NCBI GenBank assembly: GCA_017541105.1
Contig: JAFXZS010000001.1
Span: 1 to 64,000 of the forward strand
DNA: 64,000 nucleotides
Reading direction: 5' to 3'
Source: Clostridia bacterium
GTDB lineage: Bacteria > Bacillota > Clostridia > Christensenellales > Aristaeellaceae
Under the pieces are notes generated by a model. That model saw nothing but the letters and a program-made list of their open reading frames with translations. It was not told where the DNA came from and made no database searches. The stretch's first letter is position 1; every line of letters starts with the position of its first letter. Position numbers and translations under genes: made by a program. Below are positions 49,867-64,000 of this stretch, piece after piece.

Positions 49867-50793
49867 ATGAATCAGCATGCGGATGTATATCTTTTCGGAC
49901 AGGTGCTGGGGACGCATTCCTTTTTACTGAAGGACGGTTTTCTCCGGCCGGATGAATACTCGGAAATCAGGGAACAGTATTTTCTTCCGGGCGGGGAGAC
50001 CGGCACTGCAGCGACGGTGCTGGATTCCCTGGGTGTTTCCGTCCGGATGGACGGAACCTGGATCGGCACGGAGGTTGCGCCGATGCTGAAGGCCTTCTAT
50101 GCGGATAAAAAAGTGGATCTGTCCCCGCTGCACTTTACGGAGTCTCCCGGTGTCATGGATTATGTGGTGATTGCCGGGCTGGTGCGCTCTCCCATGGGAC
50201 GGTTCCAGACGATGTTTGCCTCCGGTGAGCGGTGGTGGAGTATCCCGAAGGAAGAAGACCTCGCGGGATGCAGGGCGGCTGCCATTGACCCCTTTTTCCG
50301 GGAGGAATCCCTGCTGGCAGCCGCGCTTTGCGAACGGCACGGGGTGCCCTATGTGACCATCGACTGTCCGCATGATTCCCCGCTGCACCGGGGAGCCGCA
50401 GTCAATGTGGTTTCCAGGGAGTGCACCGGAGAGCACTACGCGGGGCTGGCTCCCGAAGAAGTGATGGAGAAACTGACGGAAACATCCGGCGGGCTGACGA
50501 TCCTGACCCAGGGCGGAGGCGAAATGCTCTACGGCCGGAGGGGAGGAACCCTCCGCCGGATGAAGCCGTTCGATGTCGAGGTCCGAAGCACCCTCGGCGC
50601 GGGGGACACCTTCAAGGCCGGATGCGTATACGGCCTGCTGAACGGGATGGGCGATGAGGAACTGGTGCGCTTTGCCAGCGCCTGCTCCGGCATCGCAATC
50701 TCCCGGTTTCCGCTTCCGCTGAATCCGCCGAGGCCGGAGGAAGTCGGGAAGCTGATGTCAGCGGACCGGGGAAATGGCCAAAGGAGACTGTGA
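49867..50793 (+). CDS. PfkB-family carbohydrate kinase
   Basis: 308 residues of the ribokinase/PfkB fold. Seen: PGGETGTAATVLDSLG near residues 40-55 (first PfkB signature region), LTILTQGGGEMLYGRRGG near 215, and STLGAGDTFKAGCVYGLL near 240-257, with the catalytic Asp and anion-hole GAGD. It phosphorylates a sugar or nucleoside; the substrate cannot be named. ATG 49867 has GGAG seven bases before; the longer open frame upstream overlaps the promoter and is rejected. The stop shares one base with the next start (TGATG). Confidence 0.9.
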   Translation: MNQHADVYLFGQVLGTHSFLLKDGFLRPDEYSEIREQYFLPGGETGTAATVLDSLGVSVRMDGTWIGTEVAPMLKAFYADKKVDLSPLHFTESPGVMDYVVIAGLVRSPMGRFQTMFASGERWWSIPKEEDLAGCRAAAIDPFFREESLLAAALCERHGVPYVTIDCPHDSPLHRGAAVNVVSRECTGEHYAGLAPEEVMEKLTETSGGLTILTQGGGEMLYGRRGGTLRRMKPFDVEVRSTLGAGDTFKAGCVYGLLNGMGDEELVRFASACSGIAISRFPLPLNPPRPEEVGKLMSADRGNGQRRL

Positions 50794-51767
50794 TGGAACA
50801 GAAAAAGACCGTAAACGGGAAGGAGTATACCCTTCTCCGGCTGCTGGGCAAAGGAAAGGGCGGCTTTTCATACCTGGCGGAGCGTGAGGGCGCGCAGGCC
50901 GTGCTGAAACAGATTCACCATGAGCCCTGCGACTACTATACCTTCGGGAACAAGATTGAAGCGGAGCGGAGAGATTACGGCCGGCTGCGCGGCGCAGGCA
51001 TCCGGATTCCCGGGATGCTTGCCATCGACACGGAGACGGAGTGCATTCTCAAGGAATATATTGAAGGGCCAACGGTCTTCGATCTGGTTCGGGAAAACAT
51101 TCCCGCGGAAGCATATTTGCCGCAGGTGCGGGAGATGGCGGCACAGGCGCAGGCTGCCGGGCTGAACATTGATTACTTCCCGACCAACTTTGTGGTGCGG
51201 GACGGGCTGATCTGGTATGTGGATTACGAGTGCAATGACTATATGGATGAATGGAACTTCGAAAACTGGGGCATCCGCTACTGGAGCAGAACACCGGAAT
51301 TCGAAGCGTACCTGAAGGAGCACGGCACGGATGCCCGGATCACGATCCGGGAGGAACGGATTACGGCGGAGGAATACATCTGTTTTCTGAAGCGTACAGA
51401 TCTGGGTTCACAGTATCCCCTGGAGAGGTTTGCGGAGCGGATCGCAAAACTGGTGAATACCGTTTCGATCAGCCTGGCTGCCAGGAATACGGAAGGCCTG
51501 CTGGTTGGGGTGCTTTTCGGCCTGACCGATTACGCATACTGGCTGTACGTGACTGACCTGGGCGTGGACAGGAACTATGAACGGCAGGGCATCGGCAGGC
51601 GTCTGCTGAAGAGGGCCCACGAACTGGCAGGCGGTGAAAAGGACATCGCGGTTTATCTGATCGCCAACGAAAACGCTGTTCCGTTTTATGAGAAATGCGG
51701 CATGAAAAAAGCCGATGAGGTCATGAAGTACAACCATGTGGAGTGGACGGAGTTTACGGTGGAGTAA
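50793..51767 (+). CDS. Fusion of a protein-kinase-fold domain and a GNAT acetyltransferase
   Basis: 324 residues. Residues 1-170 look like a small kinase of the RIO/Bud32 or phosphotransferase type: YTLLRLLGKGKGGFSYLAER (glycine loop), VLKQI with the Lys, catalytic-loop-like LNIDYFPTNFVV (D-x4-N) and VDYECN in place of DFG. Residues 215-324 are a GNAT domain with VTDLGVDRNYERQGIGRRLL (motif A) and ENAVPFYEKCGM. Both active sites look usable. I know of no named family with this order. ATG 50793 follows AAGGAG by six bases; it overlaps the PfkB stop, so the two proteins are coupled and may work on one substrate. Confidence 0.82.
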   Translation: MEQKKTVNGKEYTLLRLLGKGKGGFSYLAEREGAQAVLKQIHHEPCDYYTFGNKIEAERRDYGRLRGAGIRIPGMLAIDTETECILKEYIEGPTVFDLVRENIPAEAYLPQVREMAAQAQAAGLNIDYFPTNFVVRDGLIWYVDYECNDYMDEWNFENWGIRYWSRTPEFEAYLKEHGTDARITIREERITAEEYICFLKRTDLGSQYPLERFAERIAKLVNTVSISLAARNTEGLLVGVLFGLTDYAYWLYVTDLGVDRNYERQGIGRRLLKRAHELAGGEKDIAVYLIANENAVPFYEKCGMKKADEVMKYNHVEWTEFTVE

Positions 51768-52715: not shown

Positions 52716-53732
52716 TTACTGTTCCTTCTTTGTGGCGTAGGCCGCAACCAGCGCCAGTGCCAGAACCGCACCCTTGACGGCGGGAAGGACATAGAAGGGA
52801 ACGGCACAGATGGTCAGTCCGTTTTCCAGGGTGGAGACCAGCAGGGCACCGATCATTGTTCCCAGCGCGTTCGGCTTTTCTGCGCCGCCCACGGTCCGGC
52901 CGACGAAGACGGCAGCCAGGGACTGCATCAGGTAATTATCGCAGCACATGACCTGCGCGGAGCTGCCGCGGGAGGAGACCAGGATGCCGCCGATCGCGAT
53001 AAAGACCGCTGTGATCATACCCGCCAGATAACGGTATGCCTTGACATTGATACCGGAGAGCTTCGCGGCCTGTTTGTTGCCGCCCATGGCGTAGATAAAC
53101 CGGCCGTGCTTGGTATGCTCCAGGAAAATGTAGGCAATCAGCACGCAGGCAAGCATGATAATGATCAGCCAGGGCTCCTTGCCGATAGCCAGGAAATCCT
53201 CTCCCAGCTTGATGCGCTTCGGATCCGCGCCCGCGGGGGTGCGCATGCCGGTTGAAACCGCGCCGCCGCCGATATACCACTGGCCGAGTCCCTGATGGAC
53301 GAACATGAGGGCACAGGTGGCCAGCATGTCCGGGATCTTACAAACCAGGATCAGGAACATTGTCAGCTGATACATGAGGATCGTGACGAACGTGGCGATC
53401 AGGATGCACGCGCCCAGCGGCAGCCCGTGCCAGAGGTACATGCTGACGAATACATAGGCTGAACAGCTGGCCAGCGTGCATGCGGACATGTCAAATCCGT
53501 CCGGAGCCATCGTAACGGTGGCGGCAATGCCGAACACCGTGGTAATCGACATGGCCCGGAGAATGTTGATCATGTTGTTTGTGGACATGAACCGGTTCCC
53601 CTTAATCAGGGTAAAAGCGATTACACTGGCCACCAGAGTGAATACAGCTGCCCAGTCAATCAGGAATCTACCGACGCTTTTCTTCTGCTTCGGCATTGCA
53701 GCCCTGTTGGGCTTTGGAGTTGTTTGCGTCAT
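52716..53732 (-). CDS. Ribose-type sugar ABC transporter permease
   Basis: 338 residues with eight to ten membrane helices, BPD_transp_2 (RbsC/XylH) family. Seen: RFMSTNNMINILRAMSITTVFGIAAT, the conserved GxFDxS-like PDGFDMSACTLASCSA, KLSGINVKAYRYLAGMITAVF, and VGRTVGGAEKPNALGTMIGAL. It moves a sugar delivered by the binding protein 55405-56511 across the membrane. ATG 53732 has AGGAGG, 15 bases after the ATPase stop. Facing the mtnK-mtnA-aldolase operon, the likely cargo is a 5-modified ribose; that is inference. Confidence 0.92.
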   Translation of the reverse strand: MTQTTPKPNRAAMPKQKKSVGRFLIDWAAVFTLVASVIAFTLIKGNRFMSTNNMINILRAMSITTVFGIAATVTMAPDGFDMSACTLASCSAYVFVSMYLWHGLPLGACILIATFVTILMYQLTMFLILVCKIPDMLATCALMFVHQGLGQWYIGGGAVSTGMRTPAGADPKRIKLGEDFLAIGKEPWLIIIMLACVLIAYIFLEHTKHGRFIYAMGGNKQAAKLSGINVKAYRYLAGMITAVFIAIGGILVSSRGSSAQVMCCDNYLMQSLAAVFVGRTVGGAEKPNALGTMIGALLVSTLENGLTICAVPFYVLPAVKGAVLALALVAAYATKKEQ

Positions 53733-53747
53733 GTTCGTTCCTCCTGT

Positions 53748-55265
53748 TCAGGCATAGCGGGCGCGGTTGCCCACGGCGTAATACATGATTTCGTCTTCCG
53801 ATGTCTGTGAAGTGACCAGTTCCGCCATGACCTGACCGTCAAAGAGCACATAGATCCGGTCTGTGATGGATAGGAGCTCTGAATTTTCACACGAAGCGTA
53901 GATCACGCTGTTTCCCCGTTTCGCGATGTCACAGATCAGGTGGAAGATATCCTGCTTCGCTCCGACGTCCACCCCTTTGGTGGGTTCATCGAAAATATAC
54001 AGGTCACAGTCCGCGGCCATCCACTTTGCGACGGCGACTTTTTGCTGGTTGCCGCCGGAAAGGTTTTTGACGAACTGTTTTACGGAAGGCGTGGAGATGC
54101 CGAGCTTATCAACATATTCTTCCGCGCACCGGTCGATCTTTCTTTTGTTGATAAAGGAAGCCGTGCAGAAGTTGTCAAGGGAAGCGGCTGAAATATTGAA
54201 GCTGACCGTTTCCCCCACAAGGACGCCTTCCTTGCGGCGCTCCTCCGGCACCAGGGCGATCCTGTTTTTCAGTGCCTGGGACGGATTCCTGACCGTCAGC
54301 TCCCTGCCGCCCATGATGACTTTGCCTCCGGTTTTCTCATAGGCACCGAAGATCGTCTTGCACAGTTCGGACTTGCCGGCACCGACCAGGCCGGCAATCC
54401 CGACGATCTCTCCCTTGCGTGTGTACAGGGAAACATCGTTGACTTTTCCTTCCGCGCCGGACAGGTGTTCCAACTGGAAAGTGATATCGCCGATCTCGGC
54501 GATGTCCTTGGGGAAGTTTTCCTCAAAGGTGCGCCCGAGCATTTTTTCCACAATTTCCTTTGTGGTGGTTTGCGGCGTGATTTCCGTTGTGTCAACGACC
54601 TGCCCGTTGCGCATCACCGTGTAGCATTCGCAGATCTTTATGATTTCGTTGATCCGGTGGGAGATAAAGATAATCGCGATGTTCTCAGTGGCCTGCAGAT
54701 GCTTGACCAGCTTGAACAATTCTTCCGTTTCGGTATCGGACAGAGGCGCAGTGGGCTCGTCAAGGATCAGGAAATTGCATTCGTTGACAATTGCGCGGGC
54801 AATCAGCACCATCTGCTTCTGTGCCAGGGAAAGGTCCTGAACCAGTTTGTGCACATCGACATCAATGTGCAGCCGCTGAAGCACTTCCGCGGCGCGCTTG
54901 TAAAGGCTCCGCCATCTCATGACAAACCGCCCGTGCATCACGGTGTCGTTCAGCATCACGTTTTCCGCCACGGAAAGGGTGGGGATCAAGGCCATATCGA
55001 CTTCCTGGTACACAATTTGAATGCCGAGCTTCTTCGCGGCCAAAGTGGAGCGGAGTTCCACGGTCTGGTCATTCAGATAAACCTCCCCGGTATAGTCCGG
55101 GTTTGCGCCGGCAAGCACCTTCATCAGCGTGGATTTCCCGGCTCCGTTGGCTCCGACCAGGGCATGGATTTCACCGGTGGTGACCTCAAAATCAACATTT
55201 GTCAGAGCTTTTACGCCGGGAAACTCGATGGAGACGTTCCGGGTTCCGAGCTTGATTCTTTCCAT
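53748..55265 (-). CDS. Ribose-type sugar ABC transporter ATPase
   Basis: 505 residues, two fused ATPase cassettes of the RbsA/MglA type. First cassette: GANGAGKSTLMK, Q-loop IVYQEVD, LSLAQKQMVLIARAI, FLILDEPTAPL. Second: GLVGAGKSELCK, LSGGNQQKVAVAKWMA, LYIFDEPTKGVDVG. As in RbsA, the second Walker A is altered from the consensus. ATG 55265 has AGGGGA upstream; the longer frame runs into the terminator and is rejected. It lies after a terminator that separates it from the binding-protein gene. Confidence 0.93.
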   Translation of the reverse strand: MERIKLGTRNVSIEFPGVKALTNVDFEVTTGEIHALVGANGAGKSTLMKVLAGANPDYTGEVYLNDQTVELRSTLAAKKLGIQIVYQEVDMALIPTLSVAENVMLNDTVMHGRFVMRWRSLYKRAAEVLQRLHIDVDVHKLVQDLSLAQKQMVLIARAIVNECNFLILDEPTAPLSDTETEELFKLVKHLQATENIAIIFISHRINEIIKICECYTVMRNGQVVDTTEITPQTTTKEIVEKMLGRTFEENFPKDIAEIGDITFQLEHLSGAEGKVNDVSLYTRKGEIVGIAGLVGAGKSELCKTIFGAYEKTGGKVIMGGRELTVRNPSQALKNRIALVPEERRKEGVLVGETVSFNISAASLDNFCTASFINKRKIDRCAEEYVDKLGISTPSVKQFVKNLSGGNQQKVAVAKWMAADCDLYIFDEPTKGVDVGAKQDIFHLICDIAKRGNSVIYASCENSELLSITDRIYVLFDGQVMAELVTSQTSEDEIMYYAVGNRARYA

Positions 55266-55324
55266 GGATTCCCCTCTTCTCTGCGCTCCGGCGCGCCGGA
55301 GCGGAATCAGTGCCAGGTGTTCTG

Positions 55325-55361
55325 AAGAAAAGGAGGGCCGGAGCAAGGACTCCGACCCTCC
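55325..55361 (-). terminator. Internal terminator between binding-protein and ATPase genes
   Basis: On the minus strand GGAGGGTCGGAG (55361-55350) pairs with CTCCGGCCCTCC (55343-55332), one G-U pair, followed by TTTTCTT. Placed within the operon, it would let more binding protein than ATPase/permease be made. Confidence 0.8.
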
Positions 55362-55404
55362 CTGTCAAGAGATTGCTCTCCGATTACTGATACCGATCAC
55401 AGAA

Positions 55405-56511
55405 TTACTTGTGGATCAGGTCAGCGGGCATCCAGTCGGCCACGCTCAGGTAGCCCAGGTTGCCATAGGTTTCACCGGCGATCTCGCCCAGGTTCTCCAC
55501 GGTGGAGGTGTCCTTCAGAGAGGTTGCCAGGATGGCGGTGCCGGGAACTTCGACCACGTCCACACCGTACTCGCCGCTTGCCGGGTCATAGATCTTGTCA
55601 TATTCGCCGGCCATTTCCAGAAGCAGCAGGCGCATGGCGATCTCACCGTTCATGGTCCAGTCGGTGGTGCCGGCAGCCGTCCAGATTTCCGGATGGTTCT
55701 GCATGTTGGTCACGTCCACCTGGTCGATGTCAACGGAAGCCATGGGCAGCGCGTTGTCTCCGCTGAAGTTGGGATCTTCAACGATGGCATTGAAGACACC
55801 CTGGCCGTACAGGTCGTAGTATACCACGACGCCGTCCACATCCTCACGGTTGACGGACTGGAGGTAAGCGGCCATCACGGAGTTGGCGGAATCCAGCGTA
55901 TCCTGCAGGGGCTGCACTTCGCCGACGGTCTTGATCTTTCCGGCGGATTCATATTCCTGCCAGCCGACTTCACGGCGATCGAAGGGGCTGTTGTAGTTCG
56001 GGCCGCGCCAGACCTTGATCAGGCGGACACCCTCGCCGAACTTGTCGATCATGGAGTCGAGCAGAACGGTGACCAGGGACTTGTCCTGCTGGAACAGCTG
56101 GGTGATGCCGGGGAGCTTCTGATACTCACCGTCGGTATAGAACTGGGTGTCGAAGCAGACGATCTTCAGATCGGGATACTGCTCGGTGATGCCCTTCAGG
56201 AAGGTGTAGGAACCGTCCTGGTTGCCGTGGCTGACGAGCAGTCCGTCATAACCGGCGGCCGCGCAGGTGGAAATGGTGTCCTGCCATTTGTTGAAGTCAC
56301 CGCCGCAGAAGTGCACGTCACACTGGACATCCAGGGCGGCGCACAGATCCGTGCAGGAATTGGCCCACATCTGGAAGATGGTGGCAGAGGGCAGCAGCAT
56401 GATGTATGCGACTTTCTTGCCGGCAACGGGGTTCGCGGTTTCGGCAGTCGCGACTGACATTACGGAAAGCGCCAGTGCGAGGACCAGAACCAAAGCAATG
56501 ATCTTTTTCAT
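55405..56511 (-). CDS. Ribose-type sugar ABC transporter substrate-binding protein
   Basis: 368 residues. A signal peptide (MKKIIALVLVLALALSVMSV, then ATA-ET) without a lipobox Cys is followed by a Peripla_BP_4 fold: KVAYIMLLPSATIFQMWAN, AAAGYDGLLVSHGN, and DGVVVYYDLYGQGVFNAIVEDPN. Residues that would identify the sugar cannot be read safely. In a monoderm, lack of a lipid anchor is unusual; it may stay tethered by an uncleaved signal or the cell may keep it otherwise. Divergent from the aldolase operon, 327 bases away, which implies shared control. Confidence 0.9.
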   Translation of the reverse strand: MKKIIALVLVLALALSVMSVATAETANPVAGKKVAYIMLLPSATIFQMWANSCTDLCAALDVQCDVHFCGGDFNKWQDTISTCAAAGYDGLLVSHGNQDGSYTFLKGITEQYPDLKIVCFDTQFYTDGEYQKLPGITQLFQQDKSLVTVLLDSMIDKFGEGVRLIKVWRGPNYNSPFDRREVGWQEYESAGKIKTVGEVQPLQDTLDSANSVMAAYLQSVNREDVDGVVVYYDLYGQGVFNAIVEDPNFSGDNALPMASVDIDQVDVTNMQNHPEIWTAAGTTDWTMNGEIAMRLLLLEMAGEYDKIYDPASGEYGVDVVEVPGTAILATSLKDTSTVENLGEIAGETYGNLGYLSVADWMPADLIHK

Positions 56512-56562
56512 GGTATAACCTCCTATTAAATTGCCGCGGGCTCTCCCGCTTTATTTGATATG

Positions 56563-56595
56563 AGTATAACGTATGTCAAGTAAGTTGTCAAGTAA
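56563..56595 (-). promoter_or_regulatory. Promoter of the sugar ABC operon with direct repeat
   Basis: On the minus strand TTGACA (56591-56586), a 17-base spacer and TATACT (56568-56563), a near-perfect promoter. TTACTTGACA occurs twice, 12 bases apart (56595-56586 and 56583-56574), covering the -35 and the spacer, a possible operator. Confidence 0.7.
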
Positions 56596-56695
56596 TGTTT
56601 TATAAATTTTTTTAGTTCACCGACCGGCGGGAGAAGACGACTGATTACAAAAAAATATCAAAAATGAATCAAAAATCACCTAAAAAACACAAATT

Positions 56696-56782
56696 GTTAA
56701 CAAACAGTGTCGTTTGTTTACTAAACTAATGATAAAAATATAGGATTTGTCTATTGACAGTTCAGCTGTGTTTGTTTACAAT
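56696..56782 (+). promoter_or_regulatory. Promoter and candidate operators of the aldolase-mtnKA-pduL operon
   Basis: TTGACA (56754-56759), a 17-base spacer and TACAAT (56777-56782). Upstream an inverted repeat GTTAACAAAC (56696-56705) and GTTTGTTTAC (56712-56721), six bases apart with one mismatch, and a further copy GTTTGTTTAC at 56770-56779 that overlaps the -10. A repressor or global regulator could bind both. The rest of the 327-base divergent region is AT-rich and shows no gene. Confidence 0.65.
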
Positions 56783-56838
56783 ACAAATGCGAAAGTATGC
56801 ATTGCGGTACAATACACATATTATAAAGAGGGATGAAG

Positions 56839-57738
56839 ATGAACGAACTGAAGAAGTATCCGACGGATGCCGAGGCCCGGAAAATGATCGTGGAGATCGG
56901 CCGGCGCATGTATATGAAAAACTTTGTGGCTGCCAACGACGGCAATATCTCCTGCAAGGTGGATGATGACACGATCATGACAACGCCCACCGGCGTATCG
57001 AAGGGCTTCATGTCAGAAGATGAAATGGTGAAGATGAGGCTGGACGGGACAGTGATCAGCCAGGGGGACAGGGGCCCTTCCAGCGAAGCGAAGATGCATC
57101 TGCGTATATATAATGAAAGCAAGGACGCCATGGCCGTGTGCCACGCGCATCCGCCGATCTCCACTTCCTTTGCCATTGCGGGGATGAGCCTTGACCGTGC
57201 CATCTATCCGGAAGCGCTGGTGAACCTGGGGACCGTTCCCTGTGTTCACTATGAAGCCCCCGGATCGCAGGGAATCCCGGACTCCATTGCGCCGTATGTC
57301 CGGGACTATAACGCGCTGCTGCTGGCCAACCACGGCGCGGTGGCCTGGGGACCGTCCCTGATGGAGGCCTGGTACCGCCTGGAAGCCCTGGAGCATTACG
57401 CCATGGTCATCATGTATACGGGAAACATCATCGGAAAAGCCAACGTGCTGAGCTGCGATCAGGTCGGGGAACTGCTCCGGATCAGGGAGAGGATGGGGAT
57501 TACGACCGGAGGGATCCCCGCCTGCGCCGCCAGGCCGAGCAATACGGTGGATGTGGTGGCCGGGCACAGCCCCGTCGGGGAAAAGCCGGACGGGCTGAAA
57601 ACCTACGGGCTGAAAACCTACGGGCAGAAGGAGCCGGAGTCTCCCTGCGGATGCGCGGCGGGATCCGACTCGCTGAGTGAGGCCGAACTGAAGCAGATTA
57701 CCCAGGCGGTGATCGCCCGGCTGAGCGGGAAGAAGTGA
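56839..57738 (+). CDS. Class II (fuculose-phosphate-type) aldolase with C-terminal encapsulation-like helix
   Basis: 299 residues. Residues 1-215 are a class II aldolase/adducin domain: NDGNISCKVDDDT, TPTGVSKGF, catalytic Glu in SSEAKMHLRIY, zinc ligands CHAHPP and ANHGAVAWG. Relatives split ketose-1-phosphates into DHAP and an aldehyde. The usual length is about 215; here a linker with an in-frame 15-base duplication (57592-57621, GLKTYGLKTYG) leads to SLSEAELKQITQAVIARLSG, an amphipathic helix typical of peptides that target enzymes into microcompartments. With mtnK and mtnA in the same operon, the substrate is probably 5-methylthioribulose- or 5-deoxyribulose-1-phosphate. MtnB dehydratase, of the same superfamily, is the alternative. 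ATG 56839 has AGAGGG upstream; ATG 56833 is possible. Confidence 0.87.
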   Translation: MNELKKYPTDAEARKMIVEIGRRMYMKNFVAANDGNISCKVDDDTIMTTPTGVSKGFMSEDEMVKMRLDGTVISQGDRGPSSEAKMHLRIYNESKDAMAVCHAHPPISTSFAIAGMSLDRAIYPEALVNLGTVPCVHYEAPGSQGIPDSIAPYVRDYNALLLANHGAVAWGPSLMEAWYRLEALEHYAMVIMYTGNIIGKANVLSCDQVGELLRIRERMGITTGGIPACAARPSNTVDVVAGHSPVGEKPDGLKTYGLKTYGQKEPESPCGCAAGSDSLSEAELKQITQAVIARLSGKK

Positions 57739-57823
57739 AGGACAGCGGCGGAAACACAACGGCACGGGGAGCCGGGCAGAAAAACCTGAAACCGAAAAAT
57801 GGAACCGGGAAGGAGAACAGGCC

Positions 57824-59155
57824 GTGAAAGCGATCGTGATCGGAGGCGTGGCTGCCGGAATGTCGGCTGCCTCCAAACTGCGCAGGGTTCTGCCTGACGC
57901 GGAGATCACCGTCTATGAGAAAGGCGGATATCTGTCCTACGGGGCATGCGGTCTTCCGTACTACATCGGCGATTTCAATACGGATCCGGGCAAGCTGATT
58001 GCCAGGACAAAGGAACAGTTCCGGGAAATGAACATCGACTGCAGGCTGCATCATGAGGTGCTCCGTGTGGATACGGCCGCCAAAAAAGTCAGGGTGAAGG
58101 ACCTGTCTGCCGGGACAGAATTTGAGGATTCCTACGACAGGCTGATGATCGCCACCGGCTGCAACAGCGTGATCCCGAAGCTGCCCGGCGCGGATCTGCC
58201 GTCGGTTTTCTATCTCCGGAGCATGGAGGACGGCCTGCTGCTGCGGGAGATCGCCCATGTGGAGGCTATCCGGCATGTGGCGGTGATCGGCGGCGGATAC
58301 ATCGGCGTGGAAATGGCGGAAGCGCTGGTGCATATCGGGCGGGAGGTTACGCTGATCGAAGCCGGGGACAGAATCATGAATACCTTCGAGCCGGAGTTTT
58401 CGGAACTGGCTGCGCAGGAGCTTGAACGGAACGGTGTGCGGATCATGATTCAGAGCCCGGTCACTTCCATTGAGGAAACCGGCCGTTCCCGCCTGGTCAG
58501 AACCGCGAAGGGAGACGTTTCCTGCGATATTGTGATCATGGCCGTCGGCGTGATCCCGGCGACCGGTTTTCTGAGGGAAACGGGGATCCGCATGGCCCGA
58601 AACGGCGCCCTTCTGGTGGACCGGGAGATGCGGACATCCATCGGGGACATCTGGGCGGCGGGGGACTGCGCCGTGGTCTATCACCGGCTGATGGAAGAGG
58701 ATTATTTTATCGCACTGGGCACGGTTGCCAACAAATGCGGGCGGATTGCCGGCGAGAACATGGCCGGCGGCCATACCAAGTTTGTCGGCGCGCTCGGGAC
58801 CGCGGCCATCAAGGTTTTTGACATGGAATTCGGCAGGACGGGCATGGCGGAACGGGACGCGAAGCGCCTGGGGACGGATTACAGGATGAAGCTGGTGACC
58901 GCCTACGACCATCCGGCATATTATCCGGACCCTGAAAAGCTGGTCATTAAGCTGATCTATGACGCCCGGACGAGAAAGCTCCTGGGGGCCAACGTATGCG
59001 GCAAACGAAACGCTGTCATGCGGACGGATATGTTTGCCATCGCCATCCATGCCGGCATGACTACGGACGAGCTGGGCATGGTGGACCTGGCTTACGCTCC
59101 GCCGTTTGCATCCGTATGGGATGCGGTCCATATCGCGGCGAACGCGGCAAAATAA
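57824..59155 (+). CDS. CoA-disulfide reductase / NADH oxidase-type flavoprotein
   Basis: 443 residues of the pyridine-nucleotide-disulfide family. FAD site GGVAAGMSAASKLRR at the start, the single redox cysteine in SYGACGLPYYIGD (Cys42), NAD(P)H site VAVIGGGYIGVEMAEAL, second FAD site DIWAAGDCAVVYH. One active Cys rather than CxxxxC marks the CoA-disulfide reductase/Nox/Npr branch. In this operon it might keep CoA reduced or reoxidise NADH for the aldehyde step. GTG 57824 has AAGGAG eight bases upstream. It follows the aldolase by 85 bases. Confidence 0.9.
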   Translation: MKAIVIGGVAAGMSAASKLRRVLPDAEITVYEKGGYLSYGACGLPYYIGDFNTDPGKLIARTKEQFREMNIDCRLHHEVLRVDTAAKKVRVKDLSAGTEFEDSYDRLMIATGCNSVIPKLPGADLPSVFYLRSMEDGLLLREIAHVEAIRHVAVIGGGYIGVEMAEALVHIGREVTLIEAGDRIMNTFEPEFSELAAQELERNGVRIMIQSPVTSIEETGRSRLVRTAKGDVSCDIVIMAVGVIPATGFLRETGIRMARNGALLVDREMRTSIGDIWAAGDCAVVYHRLMEEDYFIALGTVANKCGRIAGENMAGGHTKFVGALGTAAIKVFDMEFGRTGMAERDAKRLGTDYRMKLVTAYDHPAYYPDPEKLVIKLIYDARTRKLLGANVCGKRNAVMRTDMFAIAIHAGMTTDELGMVDLAYAPPFASVWDAVHIAANAAK

Positions 59156-59180
59156 TACGGAAGGAAGGCTGGACAGCGCA

Positions 59181-59981
59181 GTGGACAAGCTTTGTTCAAT
59201 CCGGGAAGCGATCGGTTCCGTGCAGGATGGCGCCATGATCGCGCTGGGAGGAAACACCCTGAACCGTGCGCCGATGGAAGCGGTGCTGGAACTGGTCCGC
59301 CAGGGAAAGCAGCGGCTTCGCCTGGTAAAAACCGCAGGCGGGCTGGATGTCGACCTGCTCAGCCTGGGAGGCTGCCTGGACAGCGTGGACGCCGGGTTTA
59401 TCAGCATGGAGACGGAGTTCGGACTGGCCCAGCATTACCGCCGGGCGGTGCAGGCCGGGATGGTGAAAGCAAATGAGCACGCGTGCTATACGGTGATCTC
59501 CGCCCTGCGGGCCGGTGCGTACGGCATTCCGTTTATGCCGGTACGGGGGCTCCAGGTTTCCGATCTGCGCAAGGTGAACGACTATTTCGCAGACGTGAAG
59601 GATCCGTTCGGAGGGGAGACGCTGGCGGCGGTCAGGGCCCTGAAGCCGGATGTGGCCGTGATCCATGTCCAGAAGGCGGACAGCCGGGGAAACGCGCTGA
59701 TCGAAGGCCCGAAGTATGACGACATACTGATGACCCGGGCCGCCGGGCGAGTGATCCTGACGGCGGAGGAGATCGTGGCGGACAACTGGTTTGCCCGGAA
59801 CACCGCCAAGGCGGATGTGCCGCATTTCATGGTTTCCCATGTGGTCCGGGCGCGTATGGGCGCTTTCCCGGGAAGCTGCTATGGCGCTTACGAACCGGAT
59901 GAGCAGATGATCCGGAAGTATACGGCGCTGGAGAACGGCAAACAGCTCAGGGAGCTTATCGGAGAGGAGGAGAGAGCATGA
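59181..59981 (+). CDS. CoA-transferase subunit A (GctA-like)
   Basis: 266 residues of the CoA_trans family I, alpha-type. GAMIALGGNTLNRAPMEAVL near residues 18-37 is the N-terminal signature, followed by LRLVKTAGGLDVDLL and VAVIHVQKADSRGNALIEGP. It pairs with the next gene to move CoA between acyl groups. The acyl specificity cannot be read; 3-methylthio-, acetyl- or propionyl-type acids would fit the pathway. GTG 59181 is the best start, although AAGGAAGG lies 12 bases away; the frame opens at 59106 within the preceding gene. Confidence 0.85.
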   Translation: MDKLCSIREAIGSVQDGAMIALGGNTLNRAPMEAVLELVRQGKQRLRLVKTAGGLDVDLLSLGGCLDSVDAGFISMETEFGLAQHYRRAVQAGMVKANEHACYTVISALRAGAYGIPFMPVRGLQVSDLRKVNDYFADVKDPFGGETLAAVRALKPDVAVIHVQKADSRGNALIEGPKYDDILMTRAAGRVILTAEEIVADNWFARNTAKADVPHFMVSHVVRARMGAFPGSCYGAYEPDEQMIRKYTALENGKQLRELIGEEERA

Positions 59982-60694
59982 TCCGCCCCTGCGATATGAT
60001 GGCGGTCTGCCTGGCCCGCCTGATCAGGAACGGGGAGACTGTGTTCCACGGCGTTTCCTCGCATCTGCCGATGATTGCCGTGCTGCTCGCGAAAAAGCTT
60101 CATGCGCCGGACGCCGTCCATCTGAACATCCCCGGCGGCGTGGATCCGGAAGAACCGGAACTGAAGGCATATACCAGCGCGGGAGGCGAACTGTGGGAAA
60201 CGGCCTGCGCGGCTCTGCCGCTGCAGGAGGTGTTTGACCTCAGCATGCGGGGCGGGCTGGATGTCGCTTTCCTCAGCGGCGTTCAGTTCGATCAGTACGG
60301 AAACGTGAACGCGTCGGTGATCGGGGATTACCGCAAGCCCAAGGTCCGCCTGCCCGGGGGAGCCGGGAGCGCCGTGCTGATTCCGACGGCGAAAAGGGCG
60401 ATTCTCTGGAGGACCAAGCATGATCCCAGGACCTTTACGGAGAAGCTTGATTTTGTAACGGCCAAAGGGCATGTGAGTGACATCGTCACTCCGCTGTGCT
60501 GCTTTACCATGCATAACGGGGAGCTGATCCTGAAGAGCGTGCATCCGTATTCTTCCCTGGACGAAGTGGCGAAAGCCACGGGATTTCCGATCCGCTATTT
60601 TTCCGCCGATACAACGCCGGAGCCTACGGCCGAGGAGATGCGCGCGCTGAGGGAGATCGATCCGAGGGATCTGCGGAACCTGGAATTCCGCTGA
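59978..60694 (+). CDS. CoA-transferase subunit B (GctB-like)
   Basis: 238 residues, beta-type CoA-transferase. RNGETVFHGVSSHLPMIAVL, LDVAFLSGVQFDQYGNVNASVIGD and LPGGAGSAVLI are the characteristic blocks. The catalytic Glu of class I transferases could not be placed with certainty. ATG 59978 overlaps the subunit A stop (ATGA), which is normal for the pair. Presence of such a pair in a metabolosome-type operon suggests that the acyl-CoA made from the aldehyde is exchanged with acetate as well as turned into acyl-phosphate by PduL. Confidence 0.85.
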   Translation: MIRPCDMMAVCLARLIRNGETVFHGVSSHLPMIAVLLAKKLHAPDAVHLNIPGGVDPEEPELKAYTSAGGELWETACAALPLQEVFDLSMRGGLDVAFLSGVQFDQYGNVNASVIGDYRKPKVRLPGGAGSAVLIPTAKRAILWRTKHDPRTFTEKLDFVTAKGHVSDIVTPLCCFTMHNGELILKSVHPYSSLDEVAKATGFPIRYFSADTTPEPTAEEMRALREIDPRDLRNLEFR

Positions 60695-60770
60695 GAGAGG
60701 GTTTTCCGGACCGGCTGACAGGCAGGCCCGATGATACAGTGATGAAACTAAACGGAAGGGAGTTATGACC

Positions 60771-61982
60771 ATGTCCAAGTACGACACCTATTTTCTGATG
60801 AAGGAGAACGAGGTTCCCGAGTATGTGCAGACGAAATATCCCGGGTACTTTCCTCCGGACGCGAAGCTGGAAGTGAAGGAGATCGGTGACGGCAACCTGA
60901 ATTATGTTTTCCGCGTCGTGGATCCTGCCACGGGGAAGAGCATCATCGTCAAACAGGCGGGCGAGGCGCTGAGAATCTCCGCGGAGATGCACGTATCCAC
61001 CGACCGGAACCGGATCGAGAGCGAAATCCTGATCCTGCAGGACAAGTACGCCCCGGGGCTGGTGCCGAAGATTTACGGATATGACACTACCATGTGCGCC
61101 TGCACGATGGAAGACCTGTCCGATCACGCGCTGATGCGTTACGCGCTGATGCGGCATGAGACCTTCCCGCGGTTCGCCGAGGACATCGCGACGTTCATGG
61201 TCAACACACTGCTGATGACGACGGACGTGGTCATGGAGCACAAGGAGAAGAAGGCCCTGGTCAAGAGCTTTATCAATCCGGAACTGTGCGAGATCACCGA
61301 GGATCTGGTGCTGATGGAGCCCTATAACGATCTGAATCACCGGAACAACGTCTTCCCGCCGATTGCGGACTTTGTCCGGAAGGAACTGTATGAGGATGAC
61401 GCGCTGAAGCTGGAAGTGGCGAAGCTTAAGTTTGACTTCATGAATAACGCCCAGGCGCTGCTTCACGGCGACCTGCACACCGGTTCCATCTTTGTGAAGC
61501 AGGATTCCACACGGGTGTTCGATCCGGAATTCGCCTTCTTCGGCCCGATCGGGTACGACACAGGCAACGTCATTGCCAACCTGATCTTTGCCTGGGACAA
61601 CGGCCGGGCAGCCGGCGCGGAGGAGTTCTGCGACTGGTGCCTGAGAACCATCCGGGAAGTGATCGACCTGTTCCGGGTGAAATTCATGGATTGCTTCGAA
61701 AAGAACGCGAGGGAGCCCATGGCGAAGGTGCCCGGATTCGCGGAGTGGTATCTGGACTCGATCATCCGGGACACCGCCTCTTACTGCGGAACCGAACTGC
61801 ACCGCCGGACCGTCGGCATGGCCAACGTGAAGGACGTGACCACGATTGCCGATCCTGAGAAGCGGGCGCACGCGGAAAAGGTCAACATTATCAGCGGCAA
61901 GGACTTCATCATGAACGCGGCGAGCTTCCGCACCGGCGAGGACTTTGTGGCAGCGGTGCTGCGGGCGGACGGGAAAGCCTGA
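60771..61982 (+). CDS. mtnK: S-methyl-5-thioribose kinase
   Basis: 403 residues, aminoglycoside-phosphotransferase-like kinase fold. EIGDGNLNYVFRVVDPATGKSIIVKQA near residues 35-65 is the MtnK start block with the ATP-binding Lys; LLHGDLHTGSIFV near 230-242 is the catalytic loop and FDPEFAFFGPIGYDTGN the metal-binding DxE. MtnK phosphorylates C1 of 5-methylthioribose and also 5-deoxyribose. ATG 60771 lies eight bases after GGGAG, so the ATG at 60765 is rejected. Lies with mtnA, as expected, but no later methionine-salvage genes (mtnB, C, D) follow. Confidence 0.95.
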   Translation: MSKYDTYFLMKENEVPEYVQTKYPGYFPPDAKLEVKEIGDGNLNYVFRVVDPATGKSIIVKQAGEALRISAEMHVSTDRNRIESEILILQDKYAPGLVPKIYGYDTTMCACTMEDLSDHALMRYALMRHETFPRFAEDIATFMVNTLLMTTDVVMEHKEKKALVKSFINPELCEITEDLVLMEPYNDLNHRNNVFPPIADFVRKELYEDDALKLEVAKLKFDFMNNAQALLHGDLHTGSIFVKQDSTRVFDPEFAFFGPIGYDTGNVIANLIFAWDNGRAAGAEEFCDWCLRTIREVIDLFRVKFMDCFEKNAREPMAKVPGFAEWYLDSIIRDTASYCGTELHRRTVGMANVKDVTTIADPEKRAHAEKVNIISGKDFIMNAASFRTGEDFVAAVLRADGKA

Positions 61983-62003
61983 GGACAGCGGGAGGAAAAG
62001 ACC

Positions 62004-63104
62004 ATGAGTGAAAAGAGCATTATGACCTATGAAACCGTGGAACTGAACGAGCAGGAAGGTGCGCTGGTGATCCTGGACCAGACGAAGCTGCCCGGCGAGG
62101 TGAAGATCCTGCATCTGACGGACCAGAAGGACATCTGGCAGGCGATCTATCTGCTGCAGGTCCGCGGCGCGCCGGCCATCGGCGTGGCGGCGGCCTTCGG
62201 CGTGTATCTGGCCGCGAAGGATATCCGGACGGACGACTATGAGGAGTTCTTCAGGCAGTTCCATGAAGCCAAGGAATACCTGAATTCCTCCCGGCCAACG
62301 GCGGTGAACCTGTCCTGGGCGCTGAACCGGATGGAACAGGTTGTGACCGGCAACAGGGACAAGCCTGTTGCCGAGATCAAGGAACTGCTGCGCAGGGAGA
62401 GCATAGAGATCAAGGCCGAGGATGTGTGGATGTGCCGGAAGATCGGTGAGTACGGACTGACGCTGATCAAGGACGGCGACGGTATTCTGACCCACTGCAA
62501 CGCGGGCCAGCTGGCCACCTCCAAATATGGCACGGCGCTGGCGCCGATTCACCTCGGACGGGAGAAGGGCATGAATTTCCGGGTGTTCTGTGACGAGACC
62601 CGGCCGCTGCTCCAGGGCGCGCGGCTGTCCTCCTTTGAACTGTATGCCGACGGCGTGGATACTACGGTCATCTGTGACAACATGGCATCCCAGGTCATGA
62701 AAAACGGCTGGGTGAACGCCGTGTTTGTCGGCTGTGACCGGGTGGCGGCCAACGGGGACGCCTGCAACAAGATCGGCACCTCCGGCGTGGCAATTCTTGC
62801 GAAGTACTACGGGATCCCCTTCTATGTGCTGGGGCCGACATCGACCATTGATATGAGTATTGAAAAGGGCGATGATATCGTGATCGAGCAGCGGCCGCAG
62901 GAGGAAGTGACGGAGATGTGGTACAAGCAGCGCATGGCTCCGCAGGGCGTCAAAGCCTATAATCCGGCGTTTGACGTGGCCGACCATGAGCTGATTGCCG
63001 GCATTGTGACGGAGTACGGTATCGCGCGTCCGCCCTACTCGGAAAGCCTGAAGGAGATCTTCCGGAAGAAGGCGGAGGCTCAGGCGCGGGGAAAAAGGGA
63101 ATGA
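62004..63104 (+). CDS. mtnA: S-methyl-5-thioribose-1-phosphate isomerase
   Basis: 366 residues. LLQVRGAPAIGVAAAFGVYLA near residue 50, the active Cys in ILTHCNAGQLATSKYGTAL near 160, VFVGCDRVAANGDACNKIGT with the catalytic Asp near 245, and PTSTIDMSIEKGDDIVIEQR are those of MtnA (eIF2B-alpha-like aldose-ketose isomerases). It makes 5-methylthioribulose-1-phosphate, and the 5-deoxy analogue, the substrate for the aldolase at the head of the operon. ATG 62004 has GGAGG eight bases before it. Confidence 0.95.
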   Translation: MSEKSIMTYETVELNEQEGALVILDQTKLPGEVKILHLTDQKDIWQAIYLLQVRGAPAIGVAAAFGVYLAAKDIRTDDYEEFFRQFHEAKEYLNSSRPTAVNLSWALNRMEQVVTGNRDKPVAEIKELLRRESIEIKAEDVWMCRKIGEYGLTLIKDGDGILTHCNAGQLATSKYGTALAPIHLGREKGMNFRVFCDETRPLLQGARLSSFELYADGVDTTVICDNMASQVMKNGWVNAVFVGCDRVAANGDACNKIGTSGVAILAKYYGIPFYVLGPTSTIDMSIEKGDDIVIEQRPQEEVTEMWYKQRMAPQGVKAYNPAFDVADHELIAGIVTEYGIARPPYSESLKEIFRKKAEAQARGKRE

Positions 63105-63122
63105 CGGGAATGAGGATTCGGC

Positions 63123-63983
63123 ATGAATGAACAGGAACTGCGCGGAATGATCCAGCGGCTGGTGCTGGCTGAAATGGCCAGGCTCGGTTTTGCGTACGCG
63201 CCGGTCATGTCCTCCAACAGGCACTGCCATCTGAGCCAGGAGGACACCGAGCGGCTTTTCGGACCCGGATACCGGCTGACAAAGCTGCGGGACCTGGTAC
63301 AGCCCGGGCAGTTTGCGTGCAATGAAAAGGTCCTGCTCGAGACTCCAAAGGGTTCGGTATCGCTGCGGGTGGTCGGGCCGGTCCGGAAAGAGACACAGGT
63401 GGAGCTGAGCCTGACGGACTGCGCCAAACTGGGGCTGAAGCCGCCGGTGCGGATGTCCGGCCGCCTGGAGAACACACCGGGATGCATACTGAAGAACGAG
63501 GGCAGGAGCATTCAGATTCCCCGGGGTGTGATCGTCGCGGCCAGGCATCTCCACATGTCCGCGGAGGAGGGAGTTGCCTACGGCCTGAAGGACGGGGATG
63601 TGGTCTCCCTCCGCATGGACGGCATCCGGTCCGTGACGATGGAGAACGTCGTGGTCCGCTGCGGCGAGGGGCATGTGCTGGAGGCCCATATCGACAAGGA
63701 TGAAGCCAACGCGTGCGGGCTGGAGGACGGAACGCTCTGCAGGATCCTTATCCCCGGGAAACCCGGGGCCTCCGGGCTTCCGCCCCGGCAGGAACCCCCG
63801 AAGAAGGAAACCATGCTTGACCTGACCGGGGAAAAGGCAAGGCTGATTACAGAGGAGAACATCCTTGCCGCGGAACGGAACGGGTACCGGGCGATCCGCT
63901 TCGGGAAAGATGCGATCGTCACACCGCTGGCCAGGGACGCGGCGGCGGAGAGGCACATTGAGCTGATCAGGGCGATCGGGTAA
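63123..63983 (+). CDS. pduL: PduL-type phosphotransacylase with N-terminal encapsulation-like helix and C-terminal extension
   Basis: 286 residues. The first 20, NEQELRGMIQRLVLAEMARL, form an amphipathic helix like the microcompartment targeting peptide of PduL. Two PTAC domains follow: metal ligands in SNRHCHLSQEDTERLFGPGY and VAARHLHMSAEEGVAYGLKDGD, plus VVGPVRKETQVELSLTDCAKLG. PduL turns acyl-CoA and phosphate into acyl-phosphate and recycles CoA inside metabolosomes. Ordinary PduL ends near residue 220; here about 65 residues follow, ending TEENILAAERNGYRAIRFGK and DAIVTPLARDAAAERHIELI, a motif that recurs in other microcompartment-linked proteins. ATG 63123 has GAGG seven bases before it. 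The operon seems to run beyond the window. Confidence 0.92.
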   Translation: MNEQELRGMIQRLVLAEMARLGFAYAPVMSSNRHCHLSQEDTERLFGPGYRLTKLRDLVQPGQFACNEKVLLETPKGSVSLRVVGPVRKETQVELSLTDCAKLGLKPPVRMSGRLENTPGCILKNEGRSIQIPRGVIVAARHLHMSAEEGVAYGLKDGDVVSLRMDGIRSVTMENVVVRCGEGHVLEAHIDKDEANACGLEDGTLCRILIPGKPGASGLPPRQEPPKKETMLDLTGEKARLITEENILAAERNGYRAIRFGKDAIVTPLARDAAAERHIELIRAIG

Positions 63984-64000
63984 GACAGAAGACAGAGAGG

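Follow-up and report, generated by a model that had tools for sequence, protein, structure and literature searches.

We describe a bacterial microcompartment (BMC) locus at the right-hand end of a 64,000-base stretch of clostridial DNA (the window), which comprises bases 1–64000 of a 153,726-base contig (C8) from a 1.92-Mb draft genome of the family Aristaeellaceae. The operon at this end of the window and its continuation past base 64000 form one unbroken run, the complete gene set of a putative metabolosome. By gene content, the locus seems fully equipped to build a protein-shelled organelle in which 5-deoxyribose-type sugars, by-products of the use of S-adenosylmethionine (SAM), are split. 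It probably encodes a metabolosome that has, as its signature enzyme, the aldolase of the dihydroxyacetone phosphate (DHAP) shunt, a route for the disposal of 5-deoxyribose, and the likeliest substrate is 5-deoxyribose itself. We infer both the choice of substrate and the encapsulation from sequence.

Gene content and proposed pathway

Family models and synteny recovered, at the same coordinates, all of the genes that an initial annotation of the window had listed. The first gene of the operon, on the plus strand, encodes a class II aldolase (56833–57738; PF00596, 162 bits), the predicted signature enzyme. It is followed on the same strand by a CoA-disulfide-reductase-like flavoprotein (CoADR; 57824–59155; PRK09564, 552 bits, cut-off 458), two subunits of the CoA-transferase family (A, 59181–59981, start codon uncertain; B, 59978–60694; PF01144, 84 and 68 bits, respectively), an MtnK/DrdK kinase (60765–61982; TIGR01767, 416 bits, cut-off 275; methylthioribose kinase 2olc, 274 bits), an MtnA/DrdI isomerase (62004–63104; TIGR00512, 418 bits, cut-off 279; isomerase 2yrf, 358 bits) and the phosphotransacylase PduL (63123–63983; PF06130, 223 bits). 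The trio of the DHAP shunt, comprising an mtnK-type kinase, an mtnA-type isomerase and a class II aldolase, is present in the window operon.

The initial annotation had predicted that shell and aldehyde dehydrogenase (AldDH) genes would lie within about 15 kb to the right of base 64000, and these were found at contig positions 64010–72589. The plus strand encodes an acylating AldDH (64010–65443; PRK15398, 639 bits, cut-off 403), two BMC-H proteins (65495–65791 and 65824–66099), a FucU/RbsD mutarotase (66142–66567; FucU-like model PRK15420, 133 bits, cut-off 141), DhaK (66580–67596), DhaL (67606–68202), a PurR/RbsR-like LacI regulator (68269–69282) and four BMC-P proteins (69279–69614, 69584–69883, 69880–70170 and 70184–70459). 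A ribokinase gene follows on the minus strand (70468–71385) and an iron-type alcohol dehydrogenase gene (Fe-ADH), whose start is uncertain, occupies 71348–72589 (PF00465/PF25137; lactaldehyde-reductase-like model, 382 bits, cut-off 523). DhaK, DhaL, the regulator and the ribokinase were assigned from profile matches. The two PF00936 and four PF03319 matches of the shell genes each exceeded the cut-off, and the metabolosome core of acylating AldDH, phosphotransacylase (PduL) and alcohol dehydrogenase (Fe-ADH) is present. No third PF00936 match, and hence no BMC-T, was found in the window genome beyond the two BMC-H. The shell of the window genus seemingly lacks BMC-T: five same-genus genomes with BMC matches have exactly two PF00936 matches each, unlike other genera of the family, whose shell loci carry two-domain BMC frames.

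Residues E85, H104, H106 and H167 of the aldolase, which we take to be catalytic, were invariant across 28 sequences. In comparisons with the PDB, the aldolase scored 92 bits with 6voq, 88 with 6vop, 81 with 6btd, which we take to be DrdA, and 64 with FucA (4c24). The cysteine of the GACG(L/I)PY motif of CoADR was kept in 30 of 30 aligned sequences. Subunit A of the CoA-transferase-like pair matched 5mzw subunit A, presumably AibA (160 bits), and subunit B matched 5n03 subunit B (100 bits). At the position that presumably holds the active-site cysteine of AibB, all 18 aligned B subunits (the window and its equivalents among L029–L076) have isoleucine, where the 5mzw–5n03 entries show Cys, Ala or Val.

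DrdK, DrdI and DrdA of Bacillus thuringiensis convert 5-deoxyribose to DHAP and acetaldehyde and can use 5-methylthioribose as well; aldol cleavages of this type have an equilibrium of ~1e-4, towards the sugar phosphate (PMC6079011). Without oxygen, Escherichia coli carrying the shunt forms acetaldehyde, ethanol and acetate, yet does not ferment 5-deoxyribose, and E. coli lacking the shunt excretes 5-deoxyribose and 5-methylthioribose (PMC10986504).

In the pathway that we propose, a ribose-type ABC transporter would import a free 5-deoxypentose, most likely 5-deoxyribose. MtnK/DrdK and MtnA/DrdI, whose families are clear, would phosphorylate C1 and form the ketose 1-phosphate, respectively, presumably in the cytosol. 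The ketose 1-phosphate would then enter the shell, where an aldolase tagged for encapsulation would cleave it to DHAP, which exits, and acetaldehyde. A tagged acylating AldDH would convert the acetaldehyde to acetyl-CoA, from which PduL would form acetyl-phosphate, recycling CoA. Acetate kinase would yield ATP, and Fe-ADH could reoxidise NADH via ethanol. An acetate kinase match exceeded the cut-off in 15 of 15 genomes with window-like (type A, below) loci, in G093 as a fragment. The shell would retain the volatile aldehyde. It would also draw forward the aldol cleavage, which at equilibrium strongly favours the sugar phosphate; together with the AldDH, PduL and acetate kinase branch, it may make fermentable a sugar that is respired but not fermented by E. 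coli when the shunt is naked.

Recurrence of the linkage and encapsulation-type helices

A scan of a genome collection using patterns from the window MtnK, a design biased to MtnK relatives, yielded 71 named mtnK loci. Shell genes were present within 10 kb in 33 of these and, in all 33, lay downstream of mtnK on the same strand, 1.9–5.8 kb away. The remaining 38 loci had no shell gene in the available stretch, many of them being broken by contig ends. The initial annotation had read the operon as part of a metabolosome for 5-deoxyribose or 5-methylthioribose; this interpretation is upheld overall by the shell and AldDH genes found on the right and by the recurrence of the linkage in 33 of 71 loci.

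The shell-linked loci fall into three architectures whose AldDHs belong to separate clades. Type A, the window-like architecture (14 of the 71 loci), has the transporter, aldolase, mtnK, mtnA, pduL, AldDH and BMC-H genes throughout. BMC-P and LacI genes occur in 13 type A loci each, CoADR and the CoA-transferase pair in 12, FucU in 10, DhaK and DhaL in nine, and Fe-ADH and ribokinase in six each; several of these stretches end early. Type B, in Lachnospiraceae, Clostridium, Bacillaceae and uncultured Firmicutes, comprises 17 loci, all with the transporter, mtnK, mtnA, aldolase, AldDH and BMC-H genes, and 16 each with pduL, BMC-P and CoADR. The two type C loci have the order mtnK-mtnA-AldDH-pduL-shell, and an aldolase was found in one. 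All 31 shell loci of types A and B combine the kinase, the isomerase and the class II aldolase. Both types retain the CoA-transferase-like pair, closest in the PDB to 5mzw/5n03, together with the CoADR-like gene, despite the isoleucine of subunit B. Upstream of the type B locus in L071 (Clostridium bovifaecis) are additional mtnK (427 bits), mtnA and aldolase matches, which may represent a duplicate of the shunt.

Within a sample of 200 genomes of the window family, MtnK exceeded the cut-off in 21, BMC in 24 and both in 15. In 14 of these 15 the two shared a contig and were separated by less than 7 kb; in G144 they lay on different contigs. At least 10 contigs are common to this sample and the 71-locus scan, and the two are therefore not independent.

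To identify candidate cargo, we used a motif based on helix spacing (positions 1, 4, 8 and 12 each I, L, V or M) with shuffles as controls, in place of the hydrophobic moment of the termini, which failed to separate tagged from untagged ends. Behind residue 215 of the window aldolase lies a tail of 86 residues. It terminates in an encapsulation-type helix at about residues 281–299, in line with the helix that the initial annotation had placed on this enzyme. Each of the 33 shell-linked aldolases, the window's and those of 32 other loci, has a tail of 50–112 residues behind this point, and 32 of the 33 contained the motif, compared with 1.6 expected from shuffles. The 20 aldolases of shell-less loci comprised 12 with long tails (43–67 residues), all with the motif, and eight with short tails (8–34 residues), none with it. 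BMC matches occurred elsewhere in 10 of the 12 genomes with long-tailed aldolases; for L080 this evidence is a single match of 54 bits, and for L040 the BMC lies on the same contig, ~33 kb off. No BMC match was found in the genomes of L085 and L092, both metagenome-assembled. Five of the eight genomes with short-tailed aldolases (L060, L062, L065, L079 and L086) also have BMC matches; the tail therefore indicates a BMC, but not the reverse.

The AldDH N-terminus contained the motif in 32 of 52 AldDHs from all loci (4.4 expected), including that of the window, and the C-terminus in eight of 52 (1.1 expected). The motif was found in no C-terminus of MtnK, MtnA, CoADR or the transferase pair, and was not above shuffles at the N-termini of MtnA, CoADR and the transferase pair. 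A slight excess was seen at the N-terminus of MtnK (eight of 74; 1.9 expected); the window MtnK and MtnA lack the motif. The C-termini of DhaK (10 of 10) and the N-termini of FucU (11 of 11) match it in a stretch that overlaps the domain. By this motif, the candidate tags are the C-terminal tail of the aldolase and the N-terminus of AldDH. The kinase and isomerase are therefore probably cytosolic, and the shell would start at the aldol cleavage. The proposal in the initial annotation that the shunt as a whole is packed in a shell agrees with the adjoining shell genes and the tagged aldolase, but probably does not extend to the untagged kinase and isomerase.

An aldolase acting as a satellite of the BMC was also considered for Cytobacillus, whose genomes have a tail-bearing aldolase. 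This idea was not supported, as the BMC locus there (L131) lacks an AldDH match. L131, in the Cytobacillus oceanisediminis genome of L069, combines its BMC genes with others resembling adenine deaminase, amidohydrolase and UbiD; the genome also has an mtnK-linked aldolase with an encapsulation-type tail.

The transporter genes lie to the left of the metabolosome operon and diverge from it. On the minus strand, they encode a ribose-type permease (52716–53732; ribose permease model PRK09512, 130 bits, below the cut-off of 398), a sugar-type ATPase (53748–55265; PRK13549, 476 bits, and PRK11288, 474 bits, below their respective cut-offs of 699 and 689) and a binding protein (55405–56511). The last was assigned by position and conserved synteny, an NCBIfam search at E 0.001 having given no match. 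Ribose-type permease and ATPase genes were found in all 33 shell loci and the binding protein in 32. Putative sigma70-like promoters precede the transporter (56563–56591, minus strand; TTGACA-17-TATACT), by consensus match only, and the operon (56754–56782, plus strand; TTGACA-17-TACAAT). Both hexamers of the latter are retained in an alignment with three close relatives (L029, L030 and L031). No even-centred LacI operator was conserved in the gap between the transporter and the aldolase; an odd-centred palindrome, GTTTACTAAAC, lies near 56714, upstream of the aldolase. Elsewhere in the window, the open reading frame (ORF) at 50790–51767 encodes a single protein with two weak matches, one to a Bud32-like kinase and the other, at the C-terminal end, to a GNAT-like acetyltransferase. 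A 1110-residue open frame at 60624–63956 on the minus strand, antisense to mtnK, mtnA and pduL, is most likely a shadow of the coding strand.

Aldehyde dehydrogenase kinship and candidate substrates

In a tree of 53 AldDHs, the type A enzymes (16 rows, including the window) formed one clade with support of 99/92. This clade was sister to AldDHs from six Treponema BMC loci, and the joint clade had support of 100/99. The type B (17 rows) and type C (two rows) enzymes formed separate clades, whose branching order the tree leaves unresolved. The grouping of E. coli EutE with L141, both on long branches, may be spurious. The window AldDH is 66–68% identical to the six Treponema enzymes, 54% to E. 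coli EutE and 41–50% to the 17 type B enzymes. DeoC-like ORFs occur in all six Treponema AldDH loci (L134–L137, L139 and L140), most with N-termini that by eye resemble encapsulation tags. Pfam confirmed DeoC in one of these six, L134, and also in the BMC loci L141 and L142, both of which have RpiB. The mtnK loci of the same six Treponema genomes lie elsewhere (L039, L040, L042, L048, L051 and L094), and in four of these genomes (L039, L040, L051 and L094) a tail-bearing class II aldolase is encoded at a distance from the shell genes, as it is in the genomes of L141 and L142 (L077 and L082). No DeoC match at E 1e-10 was found in the available type A–C stretches. The product of DeoC is acetaldehyde (Sutter 2021). 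On the simplest reading, two aldolases would supply a single compartment that handles acetaldehyde, as is possible in these Treponema genomes, and in type A the class II aldolase would have replaced DeoC.

This kinship bears most directly on the possibility that the same organelle mainly uses 5-methylthioribose, its aldolase freeing 2-methylthioacetaldehyde for oxidation to methylthioacetyl-CoA or reduction to 2-methylthioethanol and both sulfur and carbon being salvaged. MtnK and MtnA exceed the equivalog cut-offs of 5-methylthioribose enzymes, the DHAP shunt accepts both sugars (PMC6079011, PMC10986504), and a sulfur-bearing substrate could explain the CoA-disulfide/persulfide-reductase-like enzyme, which occurs in type A (12 of 14 loci) and type B (16 of 17). 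Because the window AldDH is sister to enzymes of DeoC loci, where the aldehyde is acetaldehyde, we prefer 5-deoxyribose and regard 5-methylthioribose as an unlikely main substrate; with one named reference in the tree, the kinship favours this choice and is not proof of it. Ribose itself, converted to ribulose 1-phosphate by the kinase and isomerase and cleaved to DHAP and glycolaldehyde, would suit the ribose-type transporter, the divergent ribokinase, the PurR/RbsR-like regulator and the aldolase itself, which weakly matches a model for ribulose-1-phosphate aldolase (84 bits, cut-off 300). We consider such a pentose compartment improbable: a ribokinase match is present in only six of 14 type A loci, several of which are cut, and B. 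thuringiensis DrdK is reported to have no detectable ribose activity (PMC6079011).

It is very improbable that the locus encodes a fucose or rhamnose metabolosome of the kind assumed for the PVM and PVM-like types, in which the aldolase would release lactaldehyde from L-fuculose or L-rhamnulose 1-phosphate. The aldolase is of class II, as in PVM/GRM5, and the locus includes a FucU-like mutarotase and a lactaldehyde-reductase-like Fe-ADH, both below model cut-offs. However, mtnK and mtnA occupy the place of the isomerase and kinase of those pathways, and 6btd scores above FucA entries for the window aldolase. Among the 15 type A genomes, PF02952 was matched in 11 (154–164 bits in G014, G058 and G085, 89–99 in five and 30–44 in three) and RhaA in five; the window genome has RhaA and a 30–44-bit PF02952 match. 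None of these matches lies in the operon or within 10 kb of shell genes in the 15 genomes, and both are absent from G068, G072 and G106 (95–97% complete) and G093 (77%). Fucose or rhamnose is therefore hardly the shared substrate, although some hosts may use these sugars separately from the compartment.

Several observations weigh against a 5-deoxyribose metabolosome. The window genome is 62% complete. Across a class-wide draw of 391 genomes, in which MtnK exceeded the cut-off in 18 and BMC-P in 107, the two lay within 10 kb of each other only in the window's own genome. The aldolase reaches no NCBIfam equivalog, its top model being 3-oxo-tetronate 4-phosphate decarboxylase (126 bits, cut-off 250), and the two entries that outscore 6btd, 6voq and 6vop, are titled only 'Aldolase'. 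Because B. thuringiensis DrdK also takes 5-methylthioribose, family identity cannot pick the sugar. The CoA-transferase-like pair, DhaK/DhaL and FucU are without a clear role in the proposed scheme, and DhaK/DhaL matches are absent from five of the 14 type A loci, including one that is cut. Both the motif and the division into short and long tails were defined after the tails had been viewed. PduL has ~27 residues ahead of its PTAC domain, and the encapsulation-like helix that the initial annotation placed on this enzyme was not borne out: the motif occurs in six of 30 PduL N-termini (4.4 expected) and is absent from that of the window. Finally, E. coli EutE is the single named reference in the AldDH tree and a long branch, the tree holding no PduP, PVM or GRM sequence.

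Relation to known systems

Among the matches listed for open full texts, no paper joined microcompartments with the DHAP-shunt, 5-deoxyribose or methylthioribose pathway. Methylthioribose and related terms were absent from the texts searched on the PVM-like type. In Acetobacterium woodii, a methylthioribose kinase gene just downstream of the pdu cluster was deemed unrelated to BMC function (PMC7593272). Other papers touch on both topics incidentally, in the contexts of a kinase fold (PMC11046441), SAM cleavage by a glycyl-radical activase (PMC5311937) and a drug (PMC9397018).

The locus shares with drdK-drdI-drdA and the DHAP shunt the trio of kinase, isomerase and class II aldolase; some of the known genomes add a sugar transporter and one a homologue of fucose mutarotase (PMC6079011, PMC10986504). 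The window differs in adding a shell, an acylating AldDH, PduL and an encapsulation-type tail on the aldolase. As in PVM/GRM5, which processes fucose and rhamnose, a class II aldolase would feed AldDH within a shell, but the window operon has mtnK-mtnA in place of a fucose or rhamnose isomerase.

The type B loci resemble the PVM-like type, which Axen 2014 and Sutter 2021 read as a compartment for PVM-like substrates (fucose/rhamnose). They occur in Firmicutes, have a class II aldolase (17 of 17), an Fe-ADH match (three of 17) and a DeoR-like regulator (13 of 17, ten of them above 300 bits and between mtnA and the aldolase), and their BMC-H genes outnumber BMC-P genes by at least 2–4 to 1, one cut locus having no BMC-P. 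Judged by the published description, type B probably is the PVM-like type or overlaps it.

A metabolosome with a DHAP-shunt aldolase as its signature enzyme, seen with three separate AldDH clades, is new. We tentatively suggest, as a possibility somewhat short of even, that disposal of SAM by-product sugars became shelled several times on different shell and AldDH lineages, that the published PVM-like compartments of gut Firmicutes belong with these and do not serve fucose or rhamnose, and that the shell makes excreted, cross-fed 5-deoxyribose fermentable. 5-Deoxyribose has been termed a near-universal metabolite (PMC6079011). If our reading is true, a dedicated organelle turns 5-deoxyribose or 5-methylthioribose into a nutrient for anaerobes, capturing a toxic aldehyde for energy, and the PVM-like type, whose function has so far been guessed, gains a substrate. 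With an equilibrium of ~1e-4 and a naked pathway that is not fermentative in E. coli, the system allows one to test directly why an aldol pathway should require enclosure in a shell.

The sugar phosphate utilisation (SPU) metabolosome is characterized by DeoC and RpiB (PMC8217296). A parallel to the proposed replacement of DeoC is described for SPU6/EUT3, where other signature enzymes stand in for those of SPU in a main locus (Sutter 2021). The window shares with SPU its closest AldDHs, from Treponema DeoC loci, and acetaldehyde as the presumed captured aldehyde. Its signature aldolase is of class II rather than DeoC; the locus has no DeoC, the operon has no RpiB, and a Pfam scan of 20 operon proteins found neither (PF01791 and PF02502, respectively). 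From the PVM-like type, the window differs in its AldDH clade, in having a LacI rather than a DeoR regulator and in its two BMC-H to four BMC-P genes. The initial annotation knew of no named compartment type built on mtnK-mtnA; this may need qualification, as type B fits the PVM-like type. Since it departs from both the PVM-like description and the SPU signature, the type A locus of the window is best regarded as a metabolosome variety of its own.

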